A stretch of DNA of 64,000 nucleotides, taken from positions 1,536,477-1,600,476 of the forward strand of contig BCHH01000003.1 of NCBI GenBank assembly GCA_001599595.1, read 5' to 3'. The position numbers were made by a program, and so were the translations under genes. Positions 36,742 through 58,624 of the stretch are shown here, in pieces. Below the pieces are notes generated by a model. The model did no database searches and had not been told where the DNA came from. It saw only the letters and a list, made by a program, of their open reading frames with translations. Position 1 is the first letter of the stretch. Each line of letters starts with the position of its first letter. Source of the stretch: Beverwykella pulmonaria (lineage: Eukaryota > Ascomycota > Dothideomycetes > Pleosporales > Melanommataceae).

Positions 36742-38029
36742 TTAGACAGCGCTAATCTCCCGCTTCATATTGACAAGGCCAATTTCCTCATTATGACTAT
36801 GCGAACTAGGCCCCCGACTAACATCACTAACATGTGCCGACCAGTCCTTCTTGACCTCAATATGTCCGGGCGCCTTGGAGGTCGAATCCGAGTCCGAGAG
36901 CTTGCTCTGACCACGGCTGGATCCCCTGGTTGACATGCCCGAGAATAATGAGCGGAGGTAGCTGAAACCGAGTTCGGCTGCGATCGCCTTGCGCCAGACG
37001 GGCGCGAGTGCAGGCATGCAAATACAGATGATGCCGACGTTGAGCTCAACAGTGAGCCAGACGACTTCGTCGGTGACGACCCAGGGCTGATCGATTTCCT
37101 TGTTCGTCCGGACAACGATCACCTCACGGACAATAGTCGTGATACAAATCCTGAGAACGGGATTAGCCGTGGACATGTATTGAGTGCTGCAAGGGAACTC
37201 ACAAAGCGCCAGTGCCAAACACAACTAGGAGACCGGCCTTTTGCGTCTTGCCGAGCTGCAACTGCCACACCAGCGGAAGCGGCATGATCATGATAATGAG
37301 GTCGGTGAAAATGTTGATGGCGCCGATGGCCACGTTGACCTGGGTAATCTCGATGCAGTGAAAGTGGTCCACGCTGAAATGCCACGTGTAATACACAGGA
37401 CTGCAGTCAAAAGCATAGATGAAGAAGAAAACAATGCAGTTAACAACGACAAAGCCCATCATAACGTAGCAGAGCAAGCGGAAGCGGCGTCGGATGTGGA
37501 AGACTTTGACGTAGAGACACAGGATGGATAGCTTTGCGAACATGATTCCAACGAGGTAGATCATGTCCATGATAAACTGGCACTGCAAAGCGTCAGAATG
37601 CTGTAGGGACGAGCCAAGCGCATGAGCGACTCACGTTCTTCACTGACGCATAGTTCCAGGGCTCGAGATCCCAAACGTGTCGACCCAGATGCCAAATGTA
37701 GACTGCCATGCAGTTGACGACGGTGCGAGCAATCGCCATGATCTGCGACAGTGGTTAGCATCAGAAATGGGCAGCAGGAACGGTGCGCTTACAATAGCGC
37801 CAATAGCGAACCAGTCGCTCCAATCGAAGCTCTTGGTGATGAAGGTCTTGGTGTAGATTCTCCCAAGCACCACTATCAGCGCGAGCGAAGTCAAAGCAAT
37901 GCTGGGCGCCACCATCTGGGTGGCTCTGGTGGGAGGGTTGACATAGTTGATCACCGTGCCCGGCGGTGCGCCCAGCAGTGTGACATCTGCTCGGCGCAAC
38001 AAGTTTCTTGCACTGAAGACTCTCGACAT
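36742..38029 (-). CDS. Fungal rhodopsin-domain (Pth11-like) seven-helix membrane protein
   Basis: Four exons close in frame: 38029-37793, 37742-37635, 37582-37203 and 37150-36742, giving 377 residues. Hydrophobic helices are seen near residues 38-58, 75-100, 116-138, 145-166, 190-212, 222-236 and 255-275, with the fungal signature YIWHLGRHVWDLEP, then CQFIMDMIYLVGIMFAKLSIL and DCSPVYYTW. The C-terminal tail is long, Ser-rich and polar (GMSTRGSSRGQSKLSDSDST). The family comprises fungal plasma-membrane proteins sometimes acting as receptors (Pth11 in Magnaporthe); the ligand is unknown. It is divergent from the glutathione transferase gene across about 1 kb. Confidence 0.87.
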
Positions 38030-39080: not shown

Positions 39081-39878
39081 ATGGCTCCCTCCGACTTGAA
39101 GCCCATCACCGTCTACTGGCGTCGTAAGTGCCCGCTTACTCCATTCCACCCCCACCCCCACCTCACAGCACTGACGGCATCCCGCAGCCCAGGTCCCCAA
39201 TCCCACCAAGGTAAGAAAATGATGTCGTCTCCCACCACCACCACAGTCGTCAATTGACATGACTAGGTGGTCATTATCCTCGAAGAGCTCGGCGTCCCGT
39301 ACAAGGGTGAATTTATCGAGCATGCCGACCTCAAGCAGCCAGCGTTCGAGAGCGTCAACCCGAACGGCCGTGTCCCGGCTATCCACGACCCCAATACCGA
39401 TATCACACTTTGGGAGTCTGGCGCCATCGTGACCTACCTCATCGACCAGTACGACACGGAGAAAAAGCTCACCTACGACACCTTCCCCGAGAAATACCAT
39501 CTCATCCAGTGGCAACATTTCCAAGCCTCAGGTCACGGACCCTACCTCGGCCAAGCTGCCTGGTTTCTCATGTTCCATCATGAGCAGCTGGACTCGGCCA
39601 AGGAGCGCTATATCAAGGAGACGCAGCGCGTAGTCAAGGTCCTCGACAAGTGGCTTGACGGTAAGGACTGGCTTGTAGGTGCCAAGGTCACATATGCGGA
39701 TTTAAGCTTTGTGGCGTGGAATGCGGCGATTAATTTCTTCATGAATGGTCGTCCCAAGGAGGAGTGGGATCCCGAGACCCAGTACCCCAACTTCTTCCGC
39801 TGGCAGAGTAGCATGCTTGCAAGGCCATCGGTGCAGAAGGCATCAAGCTTAGCCAAGGTGGAGGATGTACACCTCTGA
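39081..39878 (+). CDS. Glutathione S-transferase, Ure2p/GTT-like
   Basis: Exons 39081-39123, 39188-39210 (only 23 nt) and 39267-39878 join in frame and give 225 residues. The N-terminal thioredoxin-like domain starts PITVYWRPQVPNPTKVVIIL, then EELGVPYKGEF, NPNGRVPAIHDP (cis-Pro) and the Glu-Ser-Gly-Ala glutathione-binding motif in LWESGAIVTYL. The C-terminal helical domain contains DWLVGAKVTYADLSFVAW with the conserved folding-motif Asp. Such enzymes conjugate or transfer glutathione and are often found in fungal secondary-metabolite clusters for detoxification or C-S bond formation. It is convergent with the P450 at 40080, 200 bp apart, at the left border of the proposed diterpenoid cluster. 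Confidence 0.9.
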
Positions 39879-40079
39879 GCATTTTATCTCGTAAACAAAA
39901 CAAGCGTAAGCCATGTGCTTTGAAAGGGCTTTATATGGGTTGTATCAACTAGGAAATACAGTGTATTGGAAGTGAATTGCAAACTGTAGATCAATGTGAA
40001 TATTGAGATGACCATATCACTCTACCCTTACTCTATCTTCCTCCATTTCAATGTAAACCTTCAAGCCGTATCGGGCCAC

Positions 40080-41604
40080 TCAAAGTTTTGCATGACTGAT
40101 TTCCACCTTTAAGGGGTGCTTCTCCCACGTCCAATATATCTTCTGATCCGTCCACTTTTTCAAGGGCTCATCCTTTGGTACCCCCACATCGTAGTTATAC
40201 AGGAACAAGGCCAACAACAGCCTCATCTCGAGCCTCGCGAGCGGTTGTCCCGGGCAATTGTGCGAGCCCAATGCGAAGGGATAGTAGGCCGGATATTCCT
40301 TTCCTTGCATCCAGCGCTCTGGCTCGAAGGCCTCGGGATTCTCGAAATGGTCAGCCGACTTGAACATGCTGTAGCAGGAGACAGACACGGTGGTGCCTGC
40401 TGGGATGACCCGGCCTGCAATGTTCGCGTTGTTGTCGGAGCTGGGAACCACACGACGAAGGGCATCGGGTAGGGGAGGGCAGATGCGCAGGGTTTCGTCA
40501 ATCACTGCGTTTAGGTAGGGGAGCTTGGCTGCTCCAGAGGCTGTAATTTCGGATGCAGAAGAGAAGGAGGAGCGCACTTCGTTGACGAGCTTGGCGAGCT
40601 TTGCAGGGTCGGCCAGGAGATAATGGAAGACGCCAGAGAAGGTGGTAGTAAGTGTTTCGGACCCACCAACGATTATGGCAAGCACGTTTTGCTCGATCTC
40701 GGCATCTGACAGTTTGCTGCTGGCGTCGGCCTTTTCGTTATGCTCCTTGATGTATCCGAGGAGATCTGGGTGCGATGTCTTGTCTACGTTCATGCGTGCC
40801 TCCAGGCGCTGGTGGCCGTCTTGAAAGATGTTCTCCAAAAGCTGGAAGGCGGACTTGGGCGTGATTTTGGCCAAGAGGAGGTCGAGCCAGGGGTAGTATT
40901 TGACCGTAGCCCCAATCAATGCGGCCTGGAAGTGAAGAAGCACGCCCATAAAGGCGTGGCCCGCACCAGTCTCCAGGCAGTCGTATCCCCTGCTCCATGC
41001 CAGCTCGCCGATGATGTCGAAGGTTGTGAAGTTGATCCAATCGACAATGTCGACGACGGCGCTCCTACCGCCCTTGGCGATGGCCTCGTCCAGACGCGTG
41101 ACGAGCTTGTCGAGATAGGTGCGGACAATGGGCTCGTACTCTCGTGTCGCCTTTTCAGAAAAGGCGGGATTAATTGCTTTACGGAATCTCGAATGGTCCG
41201 ACGCCGACGCGGAAATGACATTGTAGGCTTCAACGCCCGGCGGGCGGGCGCCCCATTGTGGTGGACGCAGCATGTCCTTGCGGTTGAAGATGTCCTTCCA
41301 GGCGCGTGCATCGTTGATGGAGAGCTCGTCGGCGGACAGGCGAACGACGGGTCCATATTCATCGTGGAGCTCCTTGATCTTGAAGGGCAAACGGCCGGAG
41401 TTCATGCACACGAGGTATGGGATGCGGGAAACGATCCATGGCTTGGGGCCTGGATACTTGGAGAGCGGGTGGAAGTAGAGATTGTAGATGGCCTTTGTGA
41501 TGTAGTACTGCGAGTTGAAGCTGTTAGCCTGGCGCGACAACAATAAGGGCTATTGCCTCACTCACCAAGACGAGCCCGCCAAGGGCCTTGAAGAAGAGGC
41601 CCAT
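40080..41604 (-). CDS. Cytochrome P450 (CYP58/CYP65-like)
   Basis: Exons 41604-41566 and 41507-40080 join in phase 0 across a 58-nt intron with a clear branch site (GCTAAC) and give 488 residues. Exon 1 encodes only the start of the anchor (MGLFFKALGGLVL). The next part, ITKAIYNLYFHPLSKYPGPK, is the proline-rich hinge typical of trichothecene-type fungal P450s. The I-helix is IVGGSETLTTT, ExxR is DETLR, the meander is PERW, and the heme loop is FALGSHNCPGQPLARLE. It is a class II microsomal monooxygenase, expected to use the common P450 reductase. It is divergent from the CYP503-like gene at 43296 and probably hydroxylates a cluster intermediate, by inference from position. Confidence 0.88.
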
Positions 41605-43295
41605 TTGGTGTGGTTGGGGGTGCAAGAAGGCGTGGAAGGAACCAGGCTGTATGCGCAAAGCGTGCGTTGTTGTTTGCGGCGTCCGTGGTGTTGATGGATT
41701 ACAGTGTGGGGGATCATCCACAGGCGTCAGGGAGGCGTCAGGGAGGCGTTAGGGAGGCGTTAGGGAGGCGTCAGAGAGGCGTCCGGGCGGCGGGCGGCGT
41801 ATGTGGCGTACACCCGCAACGGCCGCGCAGCAGATGGCGGCACATGCCGGCCAGCAACAGATGGCCGTGGGGGCTCAAAGTACGGGCGTCTGCAGTCTCC
41901 TCACCGGCTCGGGTATCTAGCGCTCAAGGCTGGCATGTCCCTGGTATGGCGCCTTTTACCAAAACAATTTAATGGCTCACCAGATATCCAAGCTGGGAAC
42001 TGTACCCAAGCCGGCCTATTGGGTACCGGTCGGCATTTGTTTAGGCGGTCAGCAGTACATAATTGCTGCAGGGTCCCTGGAGGTTCAATGCCCTTGCGCG
42101 CAGCCCATTCCCTTGTCGATCTCTAAAACGGGAATATGTGTGGATCAGCAGTTTGGCTTCGGCACAACGGGCATCAAAGTGCATTGAATATTCTTTGCAC
42201 GAATAGTAAACTGTATATACCTCTTGAACTCCAAATAACTAACAATGCTCTTAGTAATTATAATTACGGTTCCCGAAACTCCTTAATGCTAGCTTACATG
42301 TGCTAAGCGCGCCTCGATCTAGGCAAAGATTGAGGCTGATATATAAAAGTACGAACCAAATATAATATTCATGCAATAAAATCAGGGGGTAGTCCAATGC
42401 CTTACTAAGCTATCTAGACGTCTAGATTTGTATGTAAAATACACTGTAGTTAAGATAGATTTGATGCGCTTGAATAGCCCGTGAGTCTAACCCCTACTAT
42501 TCATCTACTGAACAGCAATCACACCTCAGCGCTACCCCGTGTGCCAAGTGCAGCATACAATCTCTCCGCCACTCCCTAGCCGCCGAATACGAGCCCACTG
42601 CATCAAGGGCAGCAATCACGCCTCGGCACTGTCCCATGTAACAAGTACAGCATACGGGACCTTATCTCTCCGAGCCGTTTCTGGCTAGTCACCGTATATC
42701 AAACATTCGTATCGAGTATAAATGTCCGAATTTTGGGATGCACAGGGGATGGTAAGGCCCGAGTTTTAACGTCTCTCATGGAACTCAGCCTCTTAACCTT
42801 AATGGAAACAGGGGAGGTGATGCTGACAACTCATCTGTGACCTCGTTCCACTCAATAAACCAGAACCAGCTTGGCTGGCCAACATCAGATCATTCATGTC
42901 ACACCTAGCTTCCGGAATTTAAGACATACAGGGAGTACATCAGCTCAGCCCGGGCCTATGACCTGGTTTGGTTCGATGAAGCTACGCTAGGCCGGCCGGT
43001 GAATATCAATCCTCTCGAATCGATGTCAACCTTGAAACTTTCGGACATCGACAAACCATGTTGCAAGATATGCCAAATGCGCGCTAATAACAGTGTGATA
43101 TGCGTCTTCGCAATTTGGACTCAATCACTGCGGGAGCAGCCGAATACCCCCTTTTGATCATTCTCCCTACCAGTCAGTCTAAGCCTCCATACGATGGTGG
43201 GTTCATAGTTAAACCGGTACTGGTGTCACTCTCCTCCCTTCTATCCACACGCCTGGTTTTCCAATTCCCGAATACCTGTCTTGATCATTCTCACG
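41605..43295. promoter_or_regulatory. Divergent intergenic region between two P450 genes
   Basis: Holds the 5' flanks of the P450s at 40080-41604 and 43296-45008, an 11-bp tandem repeat at 41722-41787, and an imperfect direct repeat. The latter is AGCAATCACACCTCAGCGCT near 42514 and AGCAATCACGCCTCGGCACT near 42611, about 97 bp apart. No gene is supported. Confidence 0.45.
41722..41787. repeat. Six tandem copies of an 11-bp unit (AGGCGTCAGGG)
   Basis: Successive units read AGGCGTCAGGG twice, AGGCGTTAGGG twice, AGGCGTCAGAG and AGGCGTCCGGG. The tract starts 118 bp upstream of the P450 start codon at 41604, in the promoter region of that gene. Confidence 0.9.
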
Positions 43296-45008
43296 ATGGA
43301 GGTCCTCAACAACATCTCTTCGTTCGTTACCATGAATATGTCTTCTATGCCAACATTCCCAATGGGAGTGTCCGGCTTTACGGCTACTAAGATGCACCAA
43401 GTGGAGCTGGCTATGGCCGCCGTACCAACCGTGTCCCTTTCGTACACATTGTTGGCACTGGCTCTTTCGTTCTACGTTATCTCTCAATTGAACGTGCACT
43501 TTGGTGGCCATAAGGTGCCGCTCGTTGGCATGAGATCCGTATTTGAGACGCGATATACGGCAAACTGGAACTTCTTTCGCAACGCTAACTCTGTTCTTAA
43601 TGATGGCTATTCCAAAGTACTTTCTCCCAAATACCCATTAAACACACCACTCAGCTAATACAACCTCCAGTTCTCCAACTCGGCATGGCGCTTCGCACGT
43701 GCAGACACGGACATGCTCATTTTGCCCTCAAAATATGTCCCAGAGCTTCAATCGCTGTCCCCGCAGACTGCGAGTCCAACCGCTGCCCACGCATTCAATC
43801 TGTCCGGCCACTGGACGAACATGAATATCATCCTGAAGAACAACTTGCACTTTCGGACTCTCCAGGAAAAGCTCACTCCTAATCTCAACTTCTTAACTCC
43901 ACCGATGCAAGACGAGCTCAACTATGCCGTGGAGAAGGATCTTCCAGAGTGTGACGACTGGGTAGCCATCAAGCCTTATCACTCCATCCTCCGCCTCGTT
44001 TCCCGCATCTCCGCCCGCATCTTCCTCGGCAAGCCGTTCTGCCGCGATGACCGCTGGTTAGAGATCTCTACCGAGTTTACCGAGAATGTCTTCGTCTCCT
44101 TAGTCGTTCTACGTTTGTTCCCTCGTTTCATGCATGGCCCGCTTTCGTACTTTTTGCCCTCCACCTGGATTGGCTGCAACTACATCCGCCGTGCAAAGAA
44201 GCTTCTCGTGCCCGAAATCAAGCGCAGACAGGCCGCCAAGGCTGCTGGTCAACCCACCAGCGATGAAGAAGGCGGTGAATTGAATTTACTCAACTGGATG
44301 CTTGAAATCGCGGGTCCCCACGAGCGCAAGCCATCTGATCTCGCTCATCTTGAAGTCGTCATGTCGCTTGCCTCGATCCATACTTCGCAAATGAATGCTG
44401 TGCATGTGCTCTATGATCTCGCCGCCCATCCACAGTACGTCGAGGAGCTGCGAGAAGAGATTCGCGAAGTCTTGAAGGAGGACGGCAAGTGGAACTCATG
44501 GAAGAAGACGTCTTTTTACAAGCTCAAAAAGCTGGACTCGTTCATGCGCGAGTCGCAGCGTTTGAACCCGCCCTCCCTGCTCTCGTACCACCGCATCATG
44601 ATGCGTGACCACGTCCTGGCAGACGGCACGGTGCTCCCCAAAGGTGCTCACATCGCGATGCCGGTCAACGCCATTCAGAACATGCACACCCCCGATGCCA
44701 AAACATTCGACCCTCTCCGTTATTACAGACTGCGACAGCAGGAAGGCGAGATGCATCTACACCAATTTGCTACCACAGAAACCAACGTGCTCAATTTTGG
44801 CCATGGCAAGTATGCTTGTCCAGGGCGATTCTTCGCTGCGCTGGAGATTAAGAATATTCTCGTCCGCCTGATCATGGACTATGATTGGAAGTTACCAGAG
44901 GGCCAAGGAAGGCCAGATAACCTCCGAGCCCATGAATTCATCTTCCCCAACCAGGAAGGCCTTTTGTATATGAAGGCGCGACCGAAAGAGGAAAGACTTG
45001 AGTTGTAA
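43296..45008 (+). CDS. Cytochrome P450, CYP503-like (ent-kaurene-oxidase family)
   Basis: Exons 43296-43616 and 43671-45008 join in phase 0 across a 54-nt intron and give 552 residues. The ATG at 43296 precedes an N-terminal anchor (VSLSYTLLALALSFYVISQL). The protein then runs through VPLVGMRSVFETRYTANWNF, LILPSKYVPELQSL and RISARIFLGKPFCRDDRWLE, an arrangement known from the P450-4/CYP503 family that oxidises ent-kaurene to kaurenoic acid in Fusarium gibberellin synthesis. The I-helix is ASIHTSQMN (the family lacks the usual acid), ExxR is ESQR, and the heme loop is FGHGKYACPGRFFA. It most probably oxidises the hydrocarbon made by the cyclase at 53.8 kb. It is separated from its paralogue at 47911 by a dead transposase. 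Confidence 0.9.
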
Positions 45009-45794
45009 AAGCTGTGCTGAGAAAACTCTGATTTCTCGTTTCTGAGAAGCCTTCTCGCGAAACATGAAGTTGTATAACTGTATATTTCCTTTCTCTAGGT
45101 TATGATATTTAGCGTGGGCCTCTTTTAGTCCTCTTCTGATTTTCATGTCAGTCAGCAGCACCCTTAATAGGTTCAATTTTTGAATGAATATTTTATTATA
45201 TTCGATGAGAGAATGGTTTATGATAGCATCAATGAGAATTATTCTTCACTTTACATCCAGCGCCTCGCAGTCTATCTGTGCGGATACCCAGTATGCCAAA
45301 AGTGCTGAGAATGTGATGTTACAGAATGTTTGATCATTGACTTCGCACCAAGCGTCTACCTTGGGAAAATCCATGCTGGTAAGATTTTATCGTCTGCTGT
45401 GTAACTAAGCAATTCAGTTACGGGAAAATTTGCGACTCAGCTCTGCACCCATTACCGGGGATTGCTTACTCGTAATCTAGCGTACGACATGTTTAGGCAT
45501 CTAGTATGCAGGCCCAGGGTACCCCTCGTTGAGAACTGCACCTCTTTCAGCCCGGTGCAACATACCCCGCGAATACGAGATGTCAATCTCTATCCCGGCA
45601 ACGATTGCCGCTCCCAAGTTTAGAAGTGGTACAGCATATACACCAGAACCTTGTTTTTTACGGTCCTTAATTGGGCGATAATATCGCTCTACTAAAACAC
45701 CTACTCTAGCCGCTTCTATGGCACCCTAATGAACCATTTCTGAGGCTGAGAGGCAAGCAATATGTCTCTTTGTCCTCAATTAGAGGCCGTGCCC

Positions 45795-47263
45795 TAAGCC
45801 GCAGGATGTGATTACCTTGTTCGAGGTCATGTTTGGTCGCAAGCTCTGGCAGGGCACAATCTCCGACTCGCTCCACCACCGTTACAAGGACTTCGACAAG
45901 ACTTCTGCCACCGCCTATCGCCAGCGAGAGAGCAAGTGACCAGTTCTAAAGAATGTTCTGCTCTTCTAGCAGCAACAGATCGAGGTTCGCAGCCTTACTG
46001 TCCTTGGTGAGCTGCTTTTCGAGAAAGCGAGCGAGATCTGGCTTACACTGCCAGAGTACAACTCCAAAGCTCCACCTGATTTCTCACACGACTGGTTGGG
46101 TAAATTCAAACCGCGTCACGGGATTAAGCAATGCTATGCTCGCGGTGAGATTGCTTCGGTTCCTGCTGTTACTGAAGCTGAGATGGAGTTCCTCCGCAAA
46201 ATCGCTGCGGACTGTCTCGCGCGCTACCTCTACAATATGGACGAGACTAACCGATACTGGCGATATGCAATCTCCAGGAGTCTTACGGCTGCTTCTATAC
46301 CCGGCTCAAATGAGGAAAAATCAAGAATCTCGTTCGCGCTCTACAGTAATAGCACCGGTGCTGACAAGATAGCTCCATGGCTTACTGGCAAATAAACGAT
46401 TCCTTGCGTTCTCCGAAGCCTCAACACTAGCGCACTTGGAGTATTTTGGAAGTCGTCGACTTTGGCCTAAATGAATGGAGACATCATGGCCAAGTGACTG
46501 AAGGCCTTCTATCGCCAGGTCAGCGATATTGAGGTTATACTACTAATAGATAACTGTAAGGCCGATGTCGCTGCAATTGAGATTGTTTCCCCTCCAAGAA
46601 CGTACACATGGAGTTCCTCTCTAAAAGCAGCACTTCCAGGACCTATCGATCAAGGCACAATCGGAAACTTCAAGACGGCCTATCGGAGGCATTGGCTGTG
46701 TTACTCAATCGCGGCGGTATGGCAAAGACGATAACACTGTCATGACTGTAACGCTGTGCGACACATTAACATGAACTGCAAAAACCATGGCGAGATGAGG
46801 TTACACTAACATCAATTCGCAATTTCTGGGTAAAGTCTTCTTTCACGAAGGTAGAAAATCAGGATGGCTCTGAAATTCCGGCAGATATATCAGAGTTACT
46901 GCGCAATGCCGTGAAAATTTTAAGAATTGAAGAAGGCGCTAGGGGTCTCAAGGCCTTCCTTGTGCTAGAAGATGCGAACGAGAGGGTCTGAAGATCTATT
47001 GAGGTCCAAAATATCATTAGTTTCTACACCGATAAATAGGGCCTTGAGGTTGTTGAAGAGGAAGCTGAAGAGCCTTCACTACCTCCGTATCTCTTACAAG
47101 CCCTTGTTGCAAACGAAACTCTATAAGCCTAGGTGGAGACGCTGGAAGCTGCCAATATTGCTTGTATGAACGCCCTCAACAGTCTCGAGCGCAAACTCAA
47201 CCTTACCTGCATCAAATCGCACAAACAGACTACTCTCGAGCACTATTTTGGCTCAAAATAGGC
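45795..47263 (+). pseudogene. Dead Tigger/CENP-B-type (pogo superfamily) transposase
   Basis: The plus strand reads, in pieces, a CENP-B-type HTH (PQDVITLFEVMFGRKLWQGT), a second DNA-binding part (DFSHDWLGKFKPRHGIKQCY) and the first catalytic Asp region (LYNMDETNRYW). After those come KAFYRQVSDIEVILLIDNCK with the second catalytic Asp, a damaged PLDQG-like segment (LPGPIDQGTIGNFK) and a C-terminal TLEHYFGSK before a stop at 47261-47263. In-frame stops and frame changes occur throughout. No terminal inverted repeats were recognised. It occupies the gap between the two CYP503-like genes. Confidence 0.8.
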
Positions 47264-47910
47264 TTCTTGGGATAGCGGAGTAGGTGTTAGTCAACAGCAC
47301 GGTTGAGCGATAATTTAATACAACGATCGATTCCGTCTAGAAAATGTATCGTTCTGTTGAGGTTCTACTGTATTACGAAATGGTGTCTTGGCGCTCGGGA
47401 CTCTCACTTTTCACATGTTGATCAACATATTCGTTTTTCGTCGGAGTCCGAAGCGATAGTGACATGCAACCCGGCAATACAACGTCTTCAGATAAAGAAT
47501 AAGTAGTCCGTCAGCTCAGCCCCAGCTGTAGGATATTATCCATGGGTGAGAGGCGAATACACCAATGAGATCCCAGTCAGCCCCCACATGCAGGTCGCGC
47601 CAGGGCTATACATGCGGTATCGGAGTGAGTACTGAATTAGGTAGCGCATGTGTGGATATGCAAACGTCTGTCGATGAATTGCCTCCAGCGTCCCAGGACC
47701 CCGGAATGTGAAGCAAACACGAGTGTGATGCACCAGACTCGGAAATTTCCATGGTTCAAATTCCCAGTCATTTTGACGGACTCCTGTAGGATGATTATTT
47801 GTAAGTATTTTCATGTTGTGTTACCGTAATGGTAAAGGAAGCATATCCGCTGCCTTTGGTCGCCTTCTCCCATCTAATCGAATTTTGCCATCAACCAACC
47901 TTTTCCTACC

Positions 47911-49546
47911 ATGGCAAATGTGAGTGCTCTGTATGCGCTGCTGCATAACGCAGAATTCCAACTTCCACTCTTCGCCGTCGGAATCGCTGTCCTTGCCGTC
48001 ATTGTCCTTGCAACAACATCTTCATCCAATGCCAATGGCAAAATCAAAGCACCGTATATCGGCTCCAAAAACCGATTGTTCACGCGATTTCAGTTCCTGA
48101 ATAGAGGTTGGGAGCTAGCCTACGCTGGGCACGTTCAAGTAAGATTTACCAATTTGAGAAGGGTGGCTTGACTAACGGAACAATAGTTCCAAAACCAGAT
48201 ATACAAAGTCATCGGCGGTGACATTGTAATTCTGCCAACCCCTTTCGTCGAAGAGTTGCATAATCTTCCAGACGAAAAGATCTCCTCGATCAAGGCAAAC
48301 GTGAAAAACTTTCAAGGGCGATTAGCTGGCGCGAGTATTCTCCTAGAAGGCAATCTCCATACGCGAATTCTGCAAACCAAAGTCACGCCACAGCTCGCTT
48401 CGTTTATCCCGCGGATCCAAGACGAGCTGAAGCTAGCGTTGAAAAACGTCATCGGAAGTTGTGCAGATGGGCCAGTAGAGTTGACCGGATACGCCACGGT
48501 CCTTGCTCACGTCTCCCGCATCTCTGCAAGAGTCTTTGTTGGGGATTCACTCTGCCGAAATCAAAAATGGCTGGACACATCTCTCAATTACGTCAACAAC
48601 GCGCTGGGGACAATGTTTGTCCTCCGATGCTTTCCCGACGCTATAAAGCCAGCTTTGACATGGGTAATACCGAGCTCATGGCGAACGTCCGCCGCGATTC
48701 GGGATGCAATCAAAGTCATTGGCATCGAGGTTCGCACTCGCCGTGAAGAGCAAGCGAAGAATCCGAAGGCGGAGAAGCCGTTCGACTTCCTCCAGTTCAT
48801 GATGGATAATGCGTCTGAATTTGATGGGCAGCCTCATAAGCTCGCGCATCGACAGTTGATATTAAGTTTAGGCTCCATCCATGTGACTTCGGTGTCCCTA
48901 TGCCAGATATGGTTTGATATCGTGGCGCGCCCAGAATATGTGCCTGAGCTAAGGGAGGAGCTAGAGGCGGTATTGAAAGAGTGCGGCGGGTGGAACAAGG
49001 AAGCCCTCGGTCGACTTAGGAAGCTGGACAGCTTCATGCGAGAGGCACTGAGCTTAAGTCCACCTAGCATTTGTAAGTACCTATCCACCTTGAGAGCATT
49101 TCAAAGAGGGCGCCCGCTGACGAATATTAGTGGGTTTTAAACGCATCGTTCAACAGCCTGTAACGCTGTCGGATGGTACTGTTCTGCCCAAAGACGCAGA
49201 TATCATGGTCGTGGTAGCACCTATTTCTAAAGAGGTTGCTACACTGCCGAATCAGGCGCCTTTTGACGGATTTCGCCACTATCGAACGTGGAAAGAATCG
49301 GGAGGAAAGCTGAACAATTCGTTCGCAACGACCTCCCTTGACAACCTGCATTTCGGCCACGGGCGATATGCCTGCCCTGGCCGTTTTCTTGCCTCAGATG
49401 CAATAAAAATGATCTTGGGAGAGTGGATGCTCAACTATGATATGGAATTCGTCGGTGATAAAAGCAGACCTGTTAGCACACCGTGGCACGAAGTCATGTT
49501 TCCTGACCTGAAGAAGAAAGTTCGGTTTACAAAGCGAAAATCATAG
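47911..49546 (+). CDS. Cytochrome P450, second CYP503-like paralogue
   Basis: Exons 47911-48138, 48187-49072 and 49131-49546 close in frame and give 509 residues. The N-terminal anchor is LPLFAVGIAVLAVIVLA. The order of motifs follows the CYP503-like gene at 43296: a shared RISARVFVGDSLCRNQKWLD segment, an I-helix-like LSLGSIHVTSVSL, ExxR as MREALSLSPPS (Glu-Ala-Leu-Ser, so the Arg is replaced by Ser), and the heme loop FGHGRYACPGRFLA. The altered ExxR is a notable deviation. The next exon continues LGFKRIVQQPVTLSDGTVLP normally. It is likely to act on a later intermediate or in a changed way compared with its paralogue. It is convergent with the O-methyltransferase, 94 bp apart. Confidence 0.88.
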
Positions 49547-49640
49547 CGAGTTATATAGAAGCTGGCATGGTTGAATCAATGAAAAATCTGGAAACTTGAT
49601 ATAAATTAAATTTAAAACCAATAACAATAAGTGCGCTATC

Positions 49641-51025
49641 TTACGGGCTCCATTCAGCCTCGATGAACGAAAGTGCTGATTTCGCAGGTGTGGTCACTGC
49701 CAGAAACTTAAACCGAGAATCCGCCTTCTTGAAAAGCGCCCGCCAATCCTCCTCCGCCCTCTCTCTTGCGTTCGAAAAACACTTCACGGTAAGATCGACG
49801 GCCTGCAGTCTACGAGCTTGGTACGGAGATGCTACGCCCCATGGAGGGACACAGGCGTCATTGATCAATATTCTGCTTCCGGGTTTCAGTGCTGGGGCGA
49901 GCTGTCGAAGAATCCGGCAACAGTACTCGTCAGACCAATCGTGGAAGACGAGACGGAAGTAGTACATGTCTGCGCCTTCTACAGGCTGTGTAGACCAGAA
50001 GTCGTGTGCCATGAATGAGACACGGTCACGGACATCTTCTGGAGGAAAGCCTTGTGCCTCGGCGGACTTGATAGTTGCTGGGAGGTCCTGCACAGTGATT
50101 TTAAGGTGGGGATGTTGACGGGCAAGCGCAATGCTGATGAACCCATGCGAGCCACCGACGTCGATGAAGGAATTAATTTCGCTAAAGTCGTAGGTCGTCG
50201 CGAGGATCTCGGGCTCAAATCCAGGACTATTTTTCCAATACGACATGCCGTCCCCCATGCGCGCAGCACGCACAGGGTCTTGCTCCCAGAGCTGGAATCC
50301 GGTCAAGGTAGTGTTGTGAACAAGACTGTACGCCTGGTGGCACGAATATTAACACTGAAACCAGTAGTGGGGAGGATATGTACCGTTTGGTTGGCTTCCT
50401 GTGAGCCAGGATATTTTGTGACTGAATCGACTAGTTTGGAGTAACAGGGCCACAGTTCTTGCACGATCATATCCAGCCAAGCGGCCAATAGCGTGTCATC
50501 TGCAAGCGCCTGAGATGCCGCTGTATGAGCCACAACTCCGGGTTGGGGTTCCTGGAATATATGCTCGGCCATACCCATGCGCAACAAGCGTCTCGTGTCG
50601 AGTGCATCTAGATTGCACTTCAGTGCGATTTCTTCAAAAGTCATTGTTTCGCCTGGGCTGAACAGTTTGTGGATCTTGAATCGGAGGATGAACTGAAGAC
50701 TGAGTGCTTTGAGCTGCAGGTATATAGTCAACAAATCATAATTTCCTCAAGATGAATTTTCATAAGGAGAGAGTCTAGTACCTACTTCAGAAGAAGCATC
50801 TAGCATGGAAGCCGCTGGACCCATCAGCAAACTTCGAAGCTCATAGCTATCCTCAATGGCAGTGGATTGAGCGGTAGCCACCTCATCTGGCAACTGCTCA
50901 ACGAGGGGATTTTGGCCGGATTGAACTTCGTGAGAGGGCATTGGAAGGTCATTTTTCCTGAGGTGGTCCTGGTAGATGCGTGTGTTAGCTTCGATGCGCG
51001 CGGCAAGTTCTCCAATATCGGACAT
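49641..51025 (-). CDS. SAM-dependent O-methyltransferase (COMT type)
   Basis: Exons 51025-50786, 50713-50384 and 50333-49641 join in phase 0 at both introns (72 and 50 nt) and give 420 residues. The N-terminal dimerisation/winged-helix part contains LKALSLQFILRFKIHKLF and ALDTRRLLRMGMAEHIF. The catalytic domain has the SAM-binding loop FIDVGGSHGFISIALA, then TVQDLPATI, and the catalytic-base region YYFRLVFHDWSDEYCCRIL with the His of FHDW, and GSRILINDACVPPWG. Fungal members of this class methylate hydroxyls of polyketides, terpenoids and other metabolites. In this cluster it would methylate an oxidised diterpenoid; that is inferred from position. It is divergent from the P450 at 51303. Confidence 0.9.
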
Positions 51026-51302
51026 GATTGCTGCCGATGTAGGTCCTCAAAACAACTGCCTTGAAAGAAGAGAAAAAAAAAAGACCTTGAACGCAGAGGT
51101 GCTTTTATTGAGCAGGTAGCAACCGAAGACCAGGCTGATATAGGGTGGCCTGTATGAAACTTAGTCATCGCCGACAAGCAAGCGAAAACCCTGCAAAAAC
51201 CCATAGTATTAGGTCCGCACAATCCATGCATCTCGGATCCATTCCCACAACGCTATAAATCACCCTCCACTCCAATTGTTTTTCTGACAGTCAGCCTTCA
51301 CA
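51026..51302. promoter_or_regulatory. Shared bidirectional promoter of the O-methyltransferase and a P450
   Basis: Only 277 bp lie between the two divergent start codons (51025 on minus, 51303 on plus). No gene fits here, so both transcripts must start inside it. A CCTATATCAGCC (TATA-like on the minus strand, near 51137-51148) is present, and GCTATAAATCAC at 51252 is a TATA-like element for the P450. Confidence 0.55.
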
Positions 51303-52963
51303 ATGCTCGAGCAATTGGTTCCCAAAGGCAGCATCTCAGTCCTAGCACTTTTTTCGGCAATTCTGCTGGTATGAATACGTCCTTACTGTATAGTTAAAAA
51401 GGACCACCATCTAACACGTGATTGGTTTGTAGCTCCCTGTCGTAATTGCCATTCGCAACATCTATTTCCATCCCCTCTCCCGTTACCCCGGACCAAAGAC
51501 ATGGGCAGCCTTTCGCCTTCGCTACTGCTACTCGCTCTGGAAAGGGGATCTTGTGCTGGATATCCATGAAATCCACAAGAAATACGGGAGTTTTGTCCGA
51601 GTCTCCCCAAACGAGATATCTGTGGCGCATAAAGATGGCTGGGAGGACATATACTGTCGACGTCCGGGACATCTTCCCTTCCCCAAAAACCCCGTCTGGT
51701 GGGGCGAGTTGCCAGGTCGCGCTCCGTCAATTGTCAGCGCACCGACTTTGAAGGACCATAGACGTATGCGAGATCTTATAAGTTTCTGCTTTACGCCTAC
51801 CGCTCTACAAGCGCAGGAGCCGACCATTAGCCTCTACGTTAACAAAATGATTGACCAACTACGAGAACGATGTCTGAAGACAAGTAATAAGACAGCAATA
51901 ATCAATATCGTTGATTGGTTCAGTTTCGTTACATTTGATATCGCTGGCGACCTTGGATTTGCCGAGTCATTCCATTGTTTGGATGGCAGCACAATGCACC
52001 CGTGGCTCGCCGAGCTCTTCTCTTATGGCAAGATCGGCGCTCTCGTTGCCGCATTGCGACACTACATGTTCTTCTTCAGGCTCTTTATGAGATCCATTCC
52101 CAAGAAGACTATGGAAGCATCACAGGCAAATTACAACTGGGGTGTGGAGAAGACGCATCGTCGACTGAACCTGGAAGTCCAACGTGAAGACTGGATGAAG
52201 CACATCCTACACAACAGTGATGAAGAACACGGCCAGAGTTTGAGCATCGAAGAGCTAGAGTCGAATATGTACCTCATGAACTTTGCGGGAAGCGACACGT
52301 GCGCAACCGTCCTCTCCGGAACAGCAAACCATCTGATCAAAGCACCACACGCCCTGGAAGCGCTGGTCAAGGAAGTCCGCTCAACCTACACTAGCTCGCT
52401 GGAGATGACTTTCAATAGTCTGCAGCAACTTCCATATCTGAACGCCGTGGTCCAAGAAGGACTTCGGATGTGTCCACCGAATCCTTCCGGCTTGCAGCAT
52501 ATCGTTCCTGAAGGAGGAGACACAGTCCTTGGTAATTGGCTTCCAGCTGGGGTAAGTTTCCAAGGATTTTGCATGACTATCGTAAAGGAATGCACCCACT
52601 AACCTTTATTAGACCCATGTTGCCGTCCATCAGCAATCCCTGTATCGTTCCCCTCGAGATTTTCACAAACCCGATGAGTTTTGTCCGGAAAGATGGCTTG
52701 CATTCGTCAAGGATGATCCCAAATCGCCATTCCACAACGACAGCCTTGATGCCGTGCAGAGCTTTGGAACTGGATCCTGGAGCTGTATAGGAAAACCCCT
52801 CGGAATGGCCGAGCTCCGGAGTGTAATTGCGAAACTAGTGTGGCATTTCGATATCAGTTCAGCCCCCGGAGGCCGAGATGTCGCATGGTTGTCCCAAAAG
52901 AGCTATGCAATGATGGAGAAACAGCCCCTAGATGTCCAACTTGTGTACGTTCGATCTGAGTAA
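51303..52963 (+). CDS. Cytochrome P450 (CYP65-like)
   Basis: Exons 51303-51368, 51433-52551 and 52613-52963 join in phase 0 and give 511 residues. After a short anchor (ISVLALFSAILLLPVVIA) comes IRNIYFHPLSRYPGPKTWAA, the hinge seen in trichothecene-type P450s. The I-helix is NFAGSDTCATVL (AGxDT), ExxR reads EGLR, the meander is PERW, and the heme loop is FGTGSWSCIGKPLGMAELR with the Cys ligand. It is a microsomal monooxygenase. It shares a 277-bp promoter region with the O-methyltransferase, so the two are probably co-expressed. The hydroxyl it would introduce could be the one methylated, by inference. Confidence 0.9.
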
Positions 52964-53846
52964 TCGGGTAATTTTCATGGACCTGTTTTAAATATTATTT
53001 ACATATTACGGAACCGATACTCATATAATGTCCCCAAAAAGGAAAATATAAGCAAGCTATGTTTGGCCCATGCCCCTGCCGATAGTCTCCATGCTAGTCG
53101 TATACAAAGATCTCGTTGTTTTTGGCTAATGTTAGGTGCTGTACAAGGTGCAAAATAAATTCATTACAGCTTATAGTCTTAAACTTGATCGTTTTCTTGA
53201 CTTATCTTCAAAAATTAAAAATAGTCTCTATCTTTATTACAGTGTGCAGTTCCTGGGCGCGAAGTGAGTTCATGCGAGGTATGACTCGGAGAATACAGGC
53301 CCACTAGTGCTTTGTAACGGCTGTACAGATGTGGGGGTTTCGGTCACCGAAATTCATATTGCATCACACTGCATGCAGGTGGCGCAGCTGGTAATTCATC
53401 GACATAGTTGCCGTAAATGCGGTAGCTCGATATTCTAGTTGACTTCGCCTGGTTTATCTGCAACACCTGGCATGCACGGATGACCTAGGGGGTTTCCTTT
53501 TCTGTTACTGCCTAGATTCACCGGGCTGCTGAACGATTTCCGATTGATTGATGTGTAGTATCCGTAGCTTGTTAACAAGGGCACCTGTAGCGCACCGAAA
53601 ATGAATAATAGCTCGGCGTGATACTACAGTAAGACACTGCTAAGTACGATACGGGGGCAAATACCAAGTTGAACTCTGCTCCGAGGTTACCGGCTTATTC
53701 TAGTGCTATGGGGCCAAACCAGACTGCTTAAACATAATGATTATCGCTATGGCATAATTGATGTTAGGATTCTTGGGTTATTCCTTGCCCAGTCTCGCCG
53801 CTCGTTGTCAAACTCAAGATTTATCTTCATCTTTGCTGAGTACTTT
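52964..53846. other. Intergenic region upstream of the diterpene cyclase
   Basis: The 3' flank of the P450 and the 5' region of the cyclase. No gene is supported. The reading frame of the cyclase extends upstream without a stop to 53703, but the first in-frame ATG is at 53847. Confidence 0.4.
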
Positions 53847-56800
53847 ATGCTTACCCAAGTTCAGGATAACGTGGATATGGAACTGCAATACATTTGTAAG
53901 GAGGCTGCCGGCATCGTTCAACAGTATGCGAGCAAAATTAGTACCGGAACTCCAATTGGGGCGATGTCTACAAGCATTTACGACACCGCATGGGCGTCAA
54001 TGGTGCTCAAGGAAGTCGATGGACATCATTTATGGTTGTTTCCAAGGTCCTTTCAATTACTAATCGATAGCCAGCTCCCAGACAGTGGATGGGAATCCGA
54101 TGGAACAGATATCGACGCGATCTTGAACACTATGGCAGCACTTCTCGCTATCCTAAGACATCGCAAAGAGACGCGTGCCACCAATGAGCCACCACACCCA
54201 GAAGACTTTGATGTACGTCAACTAAGAGCTATGGACTACTTACAAAGGAAGTTGCAAACTTGGGATGTCTCATCCACTGATCATGTCGGGTTCGAGATGC
54301 TGGTCCCAATGCATTTACGACTTCTTGAAGAACACGGACACACGTACGACTTCCCGGGGCGACAGCTCCTGACAGCATTTTATAACAAGAAAATGGCGAG
54401 ATTTGATCCCCAGTTCTTGTATAGCGGAAAGCAAACAACCTTCACTCATTCCCTCGAAGTATTCTCCGGCCAGATGGACTTTGCCAAAGCCAAAACACAA
54501 CTTTCAAACGGGAGCATGATGGCTTCTCCATCGGCGACTGCTGCATACCTCATTGAATCGCCGACTTGGGATGACGAAGCGGAAGCGTACTTGAGAACAG
54601 TATTCGAGCACGGAGCAGGTCAAGGTGACGGCGGATTTCCATCAGCGTTTCCTAACGAGGCTTTTGAGCTTTCTTGGGTAGGTTTGATTTGATTTCAATA
54701 TGAGGGACCTTACTAACGAGCCTCAGGTCATGTCCACGTTACTAGAAGCTGGGCTTACAGCTAATATGCTCGGTGAGGGAGCGGTAAATGCTCTAGGCGA
54801 CTACCTTGAACACTGCTTACAGAAACATGGTGGTGTAACTGGATTCTGTAAAAACATGTCTTTCCTCTCATTGCACCTCAAAACTAACGTTCAGGTAGCT
54901 GACGGCCTTCTACCGGATGCAGATGACACAGCAAAAATCATCTCCGTTCTAAACTTCCTTGAGAGAAATACGTTCACTGCTGAGAAGCTTATCGATCACT
55001 TCTGGACAGGAAGCTTTTTCCGGACGTACGCTTCTGAGCGGAATCCTAGCTTGAGCGCCAATTGCAATGCTCTAAAAGCACTCCTTGCTCTCCCAGATGC
55101 CGAACTCTACTCTTCATACATTTCCAGGACTGTCAGTTTCCTCTGTGATATGTGGGAAAATAGTGAGATTAAAGACAAATGGGTGCGTGATGATGATTCT
55201 ATCGAGGACCAAAACGAACTATACTTGGGTATTGACGTCTCTCAGAACCATTCGTCAGAATACTCGACTATGCTTCTTGTGCAGGGACTCATGAAACTAC
55301 TCCAAAAATGGGATGCCGGAGAGATGGACGAGATTCCGGAAGATCTCATACACCATCGAGTTGCAATCGTTCTCGCTCAGGCACTCTCTCGAAGCATTCA
55401 AGGCCAATTGCCCGATGGAAGCTGGGGCGCCGGGTCTTGCGAGGTCACCGCTTACGCCGTTTCAACCCTCGTTGAATTGTCTACTTCACCATGGGCAGGT
55501 GCCTCTAGCGAACTCATCACTTCTACCATTACTCGGGGCCGCGAATTCCTTATTTCTAATCGCAACAACTGGGAAACTGGGCCCAAGCTCTGGATCGAAA
55601 AGGTCACCTATAAGATCCCTGTCTTGGCGCGTACATATTGCGTTGCTGCTCTCCATGCTTCCATGCCTTTATATACCTGGAAGCGAATCCCATGTGGACC
55701 GCACAAGAAGACAGTACAGATGCTCCCGAAATTCTTTTCCAAGCTTCCAATTTTCCGCAAGCATACAAACGCCGAATTCAAGCTCAAGGCGGCCATGGTG
55801 GAATCTTTCCCTTTCCTGCAGTACCTTCGAAGCATCAAATCTGATATCTTCCCCCAGGACAAAACCAAAACAAAAGAAGATCGATATCTCGAGTACATCC
55901 CCTTCACATGGACGGCCTGTAACGCGTTCGGTAAATCTATGCCAACACCGTTATTAAAGGACATGATGGTTCTCAGCATGCTGAACTACCAGGTGGATGA
56001 GTACATGGAAGACTTTGTGGGCAAAAATTTCGCCAATGATCTCCATGCTGTTGAGACGCTTATCGATGAAATATGCGGTCTAAGCAAGAACGAATTCGGA
56101 CTCGAGGAGACTAGAATATCACTCAGCAGGTCTTTGTCGACTAACACGAAACGGAGGAGATTATCTGACCCAGATGAACTCCCGTCTAAGAGTCGCCGCA
56201 CCTCCACTGCTAAGGAATCGACGCTCTCTGAACTCAGGGCAACTCTCACAAGCTACACATCGCACATTCTGCAGCATCCCTCTGTTCTCCACACACCATC
56301 ATCCATACAATCCCACCTCGCGCACGACCTCTGTCAATTCCTAAAAGCTCACGTCCAGCAAATTAGCGACAACATTCGCTTCAAGTCTCCTTCCGGTATC
56401 AACTACACTGGCGCTGAGACATTCCACAGCTGGGTTCACGGCACGGGGGCTCGTCATACGAGCTGTAGTATGTCTTGGACGTTCTTCTGCTGCCTTATAA
56501 GCAGGGAGGGAAAGTTTTGCTTCGAAAACGCAAGGGAGGAGTATTTAGGGAATGATGTAAGATTGCACCTTGCGGCTATGTGTCGGATATACAATGACTT
56601 GGGATCTATACGCCGTGATAAGGAAGAAGGAAATCTCAATTCTGCGGACTTCCCGGGCTTCAACCCTACTCCTATCCTTGACACTGATCAGGGTGGTGAT
56701 GTTAATATAGACACCGAAACAAACGACATCAAGAGAAAGACGAAGGAGTTACTCGAGATTGGGGAATATGAGCGTGAGGTTATGATTTCCGCTTTTGCGA

Positions 56801-56925
56801 AACTCAAAAAAAGCTTGAAAGAGGAAACAAAGAGGAGCTTGGAGCTTCTGGTTGATGTGACTGATTTGTATGGACAGATTTATGTAGCGAGGGACATTGG
56901 AGTTGCGACAGGGAAGCAGACTTGA
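53847..56925 (+). CDS. Bifunctional diterpene cyclase (ent-copalyl diphosphate/kaurene synthase type)
   Basis: Exons 53847-54677 and 54727-56925 join in phase 0 across a 49-nt intron and give 1009 residues, slightly longer than the roughly 950 of known fungal CPS/KS. The start may instead be Met at 53877 (MELQYICKEAAGI). Visible are STSIYDTAWASMVLK, the class II protonation motif D-A-D-D (residues about 341-344, in LLPDADDTAKII), and QLPDGSWGAGSCEVTAYAV. In the class I domain are D-E-Y-M-E-D (about 701-706), standing for DDxxD/DExxxD, and NDLGSIRRD (about 900-908), an NSE/DTE-type Mg2+ site. Both active sites look intact, so GGPP would be cyclised to copalyl diphosphate and then to a tetracyclic or tricyclic hydrocarbon. 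The exact product cannot be read from the sequence. It is the right-hand core gene of the cluster. Confidence 0.93.
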
Positions 56926-57344
56926 CTAACTAGGAGCTGAGCAGCTAGAGTTTGTATAGAAATTATCATTATAAGATACATCACTGGCTATGTAAACATC
57001 ATGGGAGATGGATAGTGACAATCAATAAGAATGCTGAATGTGTCTATGAGCCTTGTTCGTGAGTGCAAATTGGTCAAACAACTGAAAAGATATTCGTGAA
57101 CTGTGGAGGCCCATTACTATTATTACAATTGTGGAGAATAAATATATAGGCCCTCCTGTTTGTATGTGAAGGTATCGGAGTGCGCGGTCACGTAATATGG
57201 ACGAGATAAATCAGGGACTGAGTTGATTTAGAAGCTATGGAAATCGACGAGCATATCACGGGTGTGCAAGAATTGAGCGCGCAGGGGCCACCACCAATCG
57301 CAAAAATCGAGTATATTCAAATTATTACCACAATGCGCTTTTGA

Positions 57345-57975
57345 TTCGCACCTGCGGTTGTTCCTGAACTAATTTACAGCGATGGGGCATCTCCCTAATA
57401 CGATCTCGAATTTCCTTGAGTGTTATCTTATCCCATTCTGCCTGGATATTGGCCTTAAATTGAGCTACAGTTGACCACCTCTGACCAGCTAATCTACCCT
57501 TTATAATATTCCAGCATGCCTTAATAGGGTTAAGATTAGGTGATTAAGGAGGATGGACAAGTATGAGCAGGCCTGCGTCCTGTTTTAGGTGTGCTGGCAC
57601 GCTGTTTGGCGACTTGATTCCGTGGCTTGGATCACCATCCTCCTGCAGGTGGTATTTGACGCCGTGACAGGCTTCCAAAGCCTAGATCTGCTTAATGTGT
57701 TCTGGCAGTATCTTTTGAGCGTAAAACACCTGCGTTATACAGTTGCCTTTTGGTGTTGCGTCCTCCTTTGCCTTAGTATCTTTATATACTTTGACACGTT
57801 CCTGAAAGGCAGTATCAAGCTTGTATTTCATCTGCTTAGGCTTAGGTTGTTTGCGCTGCTTTTCTAAAGGCTCTACAGGGTCCTTATAAAAAATAAGTCT
57901 ACCCTTGTGGTTGTATAAGACGCCAGCCGCAACGTGAACAGTAACATCAGAGTTGGCAACAATCAATTCAATCAA
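57345..57975 (-). pseudogene. C-terminal part of a Tc1-type DDE transposase
   Basis: Reads SDVTVHVAAGVLYNHKGRLI, then GNCITQVFYAQKILPEHI, HLQEDGDPSHGIKS (catalytic Asp region), PAHLKQDAGLLILVHPP, a stop codon, SPNLNPIKACWNII and a C-terminus RIKSALW. In active relatives the last motif is SPDLNPIE: here Glu is Lys and a Gln codon is TAA, both G-to-A or C-to-T changes expected from RIP. It is inactive. Confidence 0.85.
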
Positions 57976-58559: not shown

Positions 58560-58624
58560 NNNNNNNNNNNNNNNNNNNNNNNNNNNNNNNNNNNNNNNNN
58601 NNNNNNNNNNNNNNNNNNNNNNNN
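58560..58624. other. Assembly gap (65 N)
   Basis: An unbroken run of N. The missing bases lie between the N-terminal and C-terminal transposase pieces, so the true gap may be larger than drawn. Confidence 0.98.

Follow-up and report, generated by a model that had tools for sequence, protein, structure and literature searches.

What does a bifunctional diterpene synthase (diTPS) make when it lies among cytochrome P450 (P450) genes and an O-methyltransferase (OMT) gene in the dothideomycete Beverwykella pulmonaria, and is its pathway a relative of gibberellin biosynthesis? The locus that raises this question lies in a window of 64,000 nucleotides (contig BCHH01000003.1, positions 1,536,477 to 1,600,476 of the forward strand, assembly GCA_001599595.1), part of one contig in a genome of 45.6 Mb and 31 contigs; positions below are those of the window unless another contig (C7, C9, C12 or C18) is named. 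Our analysis points to an oxidised, O-methylated labdane-related diterpenoid as the probable product of the cluster. This reading builds on intact genes and motifs, on the predicted fold of the class I half of the cyclase, and on the conservation elsewhere of diTPS-OMT and diTPS-P450B-type combinations. An earlier note on this DNA had called the cluster probably undescribed, and we found no report of one from B. pulmonaria or Melanomma in a literature search that had most subscription journals outside it.

An apparently intact cyclase among oxidation and methylation genes

The core of the proposed cluster is formed by the diTPS, the OMT and three P450s (43.3-56.9 kb), whose features are the following, with protein lengths in amino acids (aa):

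53847..56925, + strand: bifunctional diTPS (class II/class I), 971 aa; exons 53847-54677, 54727-54847, 54899-55182, 55246-56925
54916..54927, + strand: its class II motif DADD (sequence, alignment)
55996..56013, + strand: its class I metal motif DEYMED (sequence, alignment)
56593..56619, + strand: its second class I metal motif NDLGSIRRD, followed by KEE (sequence, alignment)
43296..45008, + strand: P450B, 552 aa; exons 43296-43616, 43671-45008; ESQR and heme-Cys motifs intact
47911..49546, + strand: P450C, 509 aa; exons 47911-48138, 48187-49072, 49131-49546; heme-Cys motif intact, ExxR site reading EALS at 49042-49053
49641..51025, - strand: OMT, 420 aa; exons 50786-51025, 50384-50713, 49641-50333; DVGGSHG and HDW motifs
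51303..52963, + strand: P450D, 511 aa; exons 51303-51368, 51433-52551, 52613-52963; ExxR (EGLR) and heme-Cys motifs present

Together with a glutathione S-transferase (GST) and a fourth P450 (P450A) to the left, these make up the seven genes that the earlier note had placed within 18 kb, and all seven are present (39.1-56.9 kb) with open spliced frames and GT-AG introns throughout. The Pfam p450 model matches all four P450s (E 8.9e-69, 1.7e-35, 2e-24 and 3.4e-51). What that gene list needs is a qualification for P450C, described as CYP503-like, which lacks the ExxR arginine, and an extension, as the neighbourhood also has a fifth P450 and a PTH11-like gene.

The reading frame of the diTPS from 54700 to 56925 holds two in-frame GT-AG introns, 54848-54898 (51 nt) and 55183-55245 (63 nt), whose removal shortens the protein from 1009 aa, as modelled with one intron, to 971 aa. 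We accept both introns because the spliced protein agrees with its relatives in length and alignment, P0001 and P0002 being without both stretches, and because the second diTPS of this genome is interrupted by introns at identical positions. Relatives begin at what is here the second methionine (53877). The diTPS tree, the protein-homologue search and the search against PDB were made with the 1009-aa model, in which both of these introns are unspliced.

The motifs of both active sites are intact, as the earlier note had read them, and their setting is that of a fungal bifunctional labdane-related diTPS: the DxDD motif lies in an N-terminal half that resembles copalyl diphosphate synthase (CPS), and the class I motifs lie in an alpha-helical domain according to a predicted model and its fold comparison. 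No Pfam model scored on the diTPS in the Pfam scan. Two chains in PDB, both named copalyl diphosphate synthase, match it as far as about residue 590 (E 1.8e-96 and 5e-96). Foldseek returned no match to the predicted model at E <= 0.001 (the best reached 1.5e-03, and 188 matches had E <= 10), so the fold support rests on VIA-align, which aligned 989 of 1000 chains and names no product. Overall, the sequence describes an apparently intact cyclase with two active sites.

Conservation of the cyclase and its partners

Protein homologue searches were run for three queries, namely the diTPS, P450B with P450C, and the OMT. The diTPS has 338 homologues at E <= 0.001, and the diTPS figures below refer to the best 120 of these, with 218 weaker matches outside the listing; those for the P450s and the OMT likewise refer to the best 120 listed matches each. 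The 971-aa model is 79% identical to P0001 of Melanomma pulvis-pyrius and 60% to P0002. A quick maximum-likelihood tree with 122 rows (SH-aLRT support only) places the diTPS first with Melanomma (100), next with P0002 (100) and after that with Halenospora and Tricladium (99), a set in which we know of no characterised enzyme.

The OMT is a winged-helix O-methyltransferase by its match to Methyltransf_2 (PF00891; E 2e-27) and its S-adenosylmethionine (SAM) site DVGGSHG; its HDW motif recurs in only 56 of the 120 listed matches. It is 90% identical to Melanomma P0241, and the next listed matches reach 44-49%. As a proxy for linkage, two matches whose longest contig has equal size were counted as lying on the same contig. 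The top listed matches of the diTPS (P0001) and the OMT (P0241) both come from M. pulvis-pyrius CBS 109.77, on contigs of equal size (63,447), and because they share species and contig size the OMT is very probably a cluster member, as the earlier note had assumed. In the part of the literature on Melanomma diterpenes that was available, no published function was found for this cyclase or OMT.

Among the P450B and P450C homologues, 24 of 119 (one of the 120 comes without a size) sit on a contig equal in size to one bearing a listed diTPS; by their place in the P450 tree, 13 belong to the P450B half, four to the P450C group and seven lie between. Several of these diTPS-P450 pairs have adjacent or nearby locus tags. 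No contig size recurs within any one list, and one P450-OMT pair of equal contig size (12,118) comes from different sources. The pattern looks like one in which P450B is an older partner of diTPSs and the OMT an addition shared with Melanomma.

Further diTPS loci lie elsewhere in the genome. The second (C12:667532-670803, L014) has an open frame of 1036 aa with DAYME in place of the class I motif DExxE, groups with Lindgomyces, Corynespora and Parastagonospora nodorum, and has a P450B-like P450 nearby (C12:664373-665683). In the third (C12:897277-901118, L017), the class I half is broken just past VDEYMES by a stop-rich stretch of about 0.8 kb, which is either an insertion or an unusual intron. 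There is also a diTPS fragment with two internal stops (C9:1608407-1608838, L019). Separately, SonD, a P450 of Paraconiothyrium archidendri (P0238), is 37% identical to P450B. As a pointer to a named cluster it was dropped, since no paper on a SonD cluster was found and the guess of a sonomolide-type dilactone was unsupported.

Where the cluster ends

The genes and remnants around the core are these:

39081..39878, + strand: GST, 225 aa, possible member (gene model; Pfam GST domains)
40080..41604, - strand: P450A, 488 aa, possible member (gene model; Pfam)
36742..38029, - strand, approximate, introns left in: PTH11-like membrane protein with a fungal rhodopsin domain, possible member (PF20684, E 1.8e-35, in the open reading frame 37199-37588)
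34446-36090: fifth P450, some 3 kb to the left of the GST (C-terminal half, E 2e-29)
45784..46988, + strand: Tc5/pogo-like DNA transposon remnant between P450B and P450C, no cluster gene (HTH_Tnp_Tc5 1e-07, HTH_ABP1_N 3.7e-06, DDE_1 0.0038, the last below cut-off)
57328-57543: probable Tc1/mariner-like remnant, 0.4 kb past the diTPS (weak DDE_3, below the Pfam cut-off)
64.2-66.8 kb: GH95 gene, right of the cluster

The window sequence also contains a run of N at 58560-58624, and indices of repeat-induced point mutation gave nothing usable.

GC content at third codon positions (GC3) separates the two sides of this neighbourhood. The GST (0.74) and P450A (0.72) stand apart from P450C (0.54), the OMT (0.56), P450D (0.55) and the diTPS (0.52), with P450B at 0.65, and because of this difference the membership of the GST and P450A is doubtful. 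A larger block that also takes in the PTH11-like gene, the GST, P450A and perhaps the fifth P450 is nevertheless a serious alternative, to which we would give somewhat less than an even chance. The legend of Fig. 3 in Fischer et al. 2015 (PMC4617483) counts GST, PTH11-like, P450 and SAM-methyltransferase genes among the syntenic genes of fungal diTPS clusters. Moreover, the third diTPS of this genome has a gene with a fungal rhodopsin domain and a P450 within 5 kb, and homologues of the GST (59-63%) lie near OMT-like or P450-like genes on C18 and C7. Against these points stands the GC3 contrast, and we retain the five-gene core. On C18 (33818-37938), a GST-like gene (up to 59% identical to the window GST), an OMT-like gene and a P450 lie side by side, perhaps as another metabolite cluster.

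A P450 without the ExxR arginine

P450C keeps the heme-binding motif FxxGxxxCxG (FGHGRYACPG), but its EALS has serine in place of the arginine of ExxR, whereas the K-helix glutamate and arginine are kept in all 120 listed homologues. Its end branch in the P450 tree, likewise quick and with SH-aLRT support only, measures 1.46 changes per column, where the median is 0.16 and P450B has 0.036, and its position is unsure because this branch is so long. A survey of fungal P450s (PMC3990721) describes the glutamate and arginine of ExxR as conserved with few exceptions and mutation of ExxR as leading in most P450s to inactive, misfolded protein; it also mentions two functional Streptomyces P450s without ExxR. 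P450C is probably inactive or non-standard and maybe no ordinary oxidase, with loss of function likelier than a non-standard role. Alternatively, EALS may reflect an assembly error at that spot.

Proposed pathway and product

The pathway would start from geranylgeranyl diphosphate (GGPP) made by a GGPP synthase coded elsewhere in the genome. Such an arrangement is common, since only 19 of 56 diTPS regions had a clustered GGPP synthase (PMC4617483). The class II site (DADD) would, in the manner of its enzyme family, protonate GGPP to give a copalyl-type diphosphate, which the class I site (DEYMED, NDLGSIRRDKEE) would ionise to yield a hydrocarbon or alcohol. P450B, as the conserved partner, would oxidise this product first, P450D and perhaps P450A would add hydroxyls, and the OMT would methylate one of them. 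As to the carbon skeleton, we tentatively favour a tricyclic one of pimarane type, at slightly under an even chance, from the absence of the motif NHIG and from what distant relatives suggest. Some other skeleton seems less likely, and a tetracyclic one slightly less likely still. An attempt to derive the stereochemistry of the copalyl diphosphate from base residues was given up, as the consensus shows hardly any variation in the HSLE and PSAFP stretches.

Several observations weigh against the proposed methylated diterpenoid pathway. With regard to the pimarane preference, the nearest rows of characterised type lie far off in the diTPS tree. Within the locus, the GC3 of P450B falls between those of the core and the left-hand genes, and a transposon remnant splits P450B from P450C. 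With regard to conservation, an OMT and a listed diTPS share an equal-sized contig in only one of the 120 listed OMT matches, the listed P450 matches include no Melanomma homologue of P450B or P450C, and close P450B homologues (73-76%) from Massariosphaeria, Delitschia and Massarina sit on contigs that match no listed diTPS in size; throughout, equal size is only a proxy for the same contig.

Two other accounts were weighed. It is improbable, in our view, that the cyclases of Beverwykella, Melanomma, Halenospora and Tricladium make a skeleton that is new for fungal bifunctional cyclases, with the OMT forming a methyl ether and P450C, despite its missing arginine, serving the pathway either as a non-standard heme enzyme or by binding to P450B. 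Quite improbable, too, is a decaying cluster in which the diTPS still works while the pathway is being lost: the degenerate ExxR and long branch of P450C, the transposon remnants on both sides (45.8-47.0 and 57.3-57.5 kb), and the interrupted third diTPS and the fragment elsewhere in the genome would fit such decay, but the remaining frames, splice sites and motifs are all intact, P450C is free of stops and keeps its heme-Cys motif, and the OMT is 90% conserved with Melanomma. We keep to the oxidised, O-methylated labdane-related diterpenoid as the probable product.

The gibberellin comparison

A. nidulans ent-pimaradiene synthase and the gibberellin enzymes differ at the motif stretches of Fischer et al. 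(PMC4617483), where gibberellin fungi have NHIGVE and DVDD. At these sites the diTPS studied here reads TDHVGFE and DADD. Over 57 residues and 33 of the 57 Fischer rows, it is closest to N. crassa (37 identical), T. reesei (36) and C. globosum (35), and the eight NHIG rows (17-24 of 57) are all among the nine lowest of the rows compared. The 120 listed cyclase homologues all lack NHIG[VI]E, though gibberellin enzymes may sit among the 218 weaker matches. The comparison with homologues that the earlier note had proposed, including the tree that places the cyclase with Melanomma, P0002, Halenospora and Tricladium, did not support its ent-kaurane lead.

The window has no match to GGPP synthase (PF00348), for which seven loci exist elsewhere in the genome, the nearest on the same contig about 1 Mb off, and none of the genome's matches to the 2-oxoglutarate oxygenase family of the GA4 desaturase (PF03171) falls in it, so that, as far as these two Pfam families show, the absence of both genes from the stretch holds as previously stated. 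A GA4 desaturase is not required by every gibberellin producer. On sequence grounds the gibberellin analogy fails, because the cyclase is without NHIG[VI]E and the window without a GGPP-synthase or 2-oxoglutarate-oxygenase match. For the same reasons, together with the low rank of the NHIG rows, a truncated or modified gibberellin-type cluster making an ent-kaurane is very unlikely, although a bifunctional diTPS does lie beside P450s whose relatives include automatically named ent-kaurene oxidases (P0139, P0159), these names being transfers and not tests. An ent product does not require NHIG, since the A. nidulans ent-pimaradiene synthase has HVGFE (PMC4617483, PMC3323652). What survives of the previous interpretation is a diterpenoid cluster other than that of gibberellin; neither the ent-kaurane lead nor the choice of the gibberellin cluster as nearest model is supported.

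Significance and comparison with known clusters

A cyclase with two or three P450s and one OMT forms a short, nearly self-contained unit that is convenient for heterologous expression, and a second species has an orthologous pair of its cyclase and OMT. The products of most fungal bifunctional diterpene cyclases are, to our knowledge, not known, and that of this cluster would supply the product of one unassigned cyclase clade. Additionally, P450C gives a testable example of a fungal P450 that lacks the arginine of ExxR.

The closest counterpart is that pair in M. pulvis-pyrius, which differs from the present locus in that a P450B or P450C homologue is absent among the listed matches. Among fungi, A. 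nidulans (PMC3323652), Talaromyces (labd; PMC10744899) and Magnaporthe (PMC10512213) have diterpene clusters that include P450s and methyltransferases, and the literature on Aspergillus wentii yielded no closer cluster. The pimaradiene cluster of A. nidulans (PbcA, AN1594; PMC3323652) likewise has a bifunctional DADD cyclase, a P450 and a methyltransferase-like gene; unlike the cluster described here, it has its own GGPP synthase, and it also has a 3-hydroxy-3-methylglutaryl-CoA (HMG-CoA) reductase, a short-chain dehydrogenase/reductase (SDR) and a Zn2Cys6 factor. No HMG-CoA reductase, SDR or Zn2Cys6 regulator turned up among the Pfam-scanned open reading frames of the window, where no dedicated search was made. 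Membership in the pbc group is rejected on the tree, in which the pbcA-like rows P0044 and P0052 (assigned by motif) fall in another clade. The Talaromyces labd cluster (PMC10744899) shares a CPS-type class II half, P450s and methylation, but its cyclase is of the prenyltransferase-CPS type, which has a prenyltransferase domain and lacks a class I cyclase, whereas the cyclase here has class I motifs and fold in its C-terminal half. The Fusarium fujikuroi gibberellin cluster also combines a bifunctional cyclase with P450s, but has the NHIG motif, a GGPP synthase and a desaturase. The non-gibberellin clusters of T. reesei, A. niger, C. globosum and A. nidulans_a (PMC4617483) share HVGFE/DADD cyclase motifs and P450s, and GST, PTH11-like and methyltransferase genes are named there as syntenic, as in this neighbourhood, although the present cyclase shares no more than about 36% identity with T. 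reesei P0111 and belongs to a different clade. Judged by its genes, the cluster is a further example of a known pathway type and not a relative of the gibberellin cluster.
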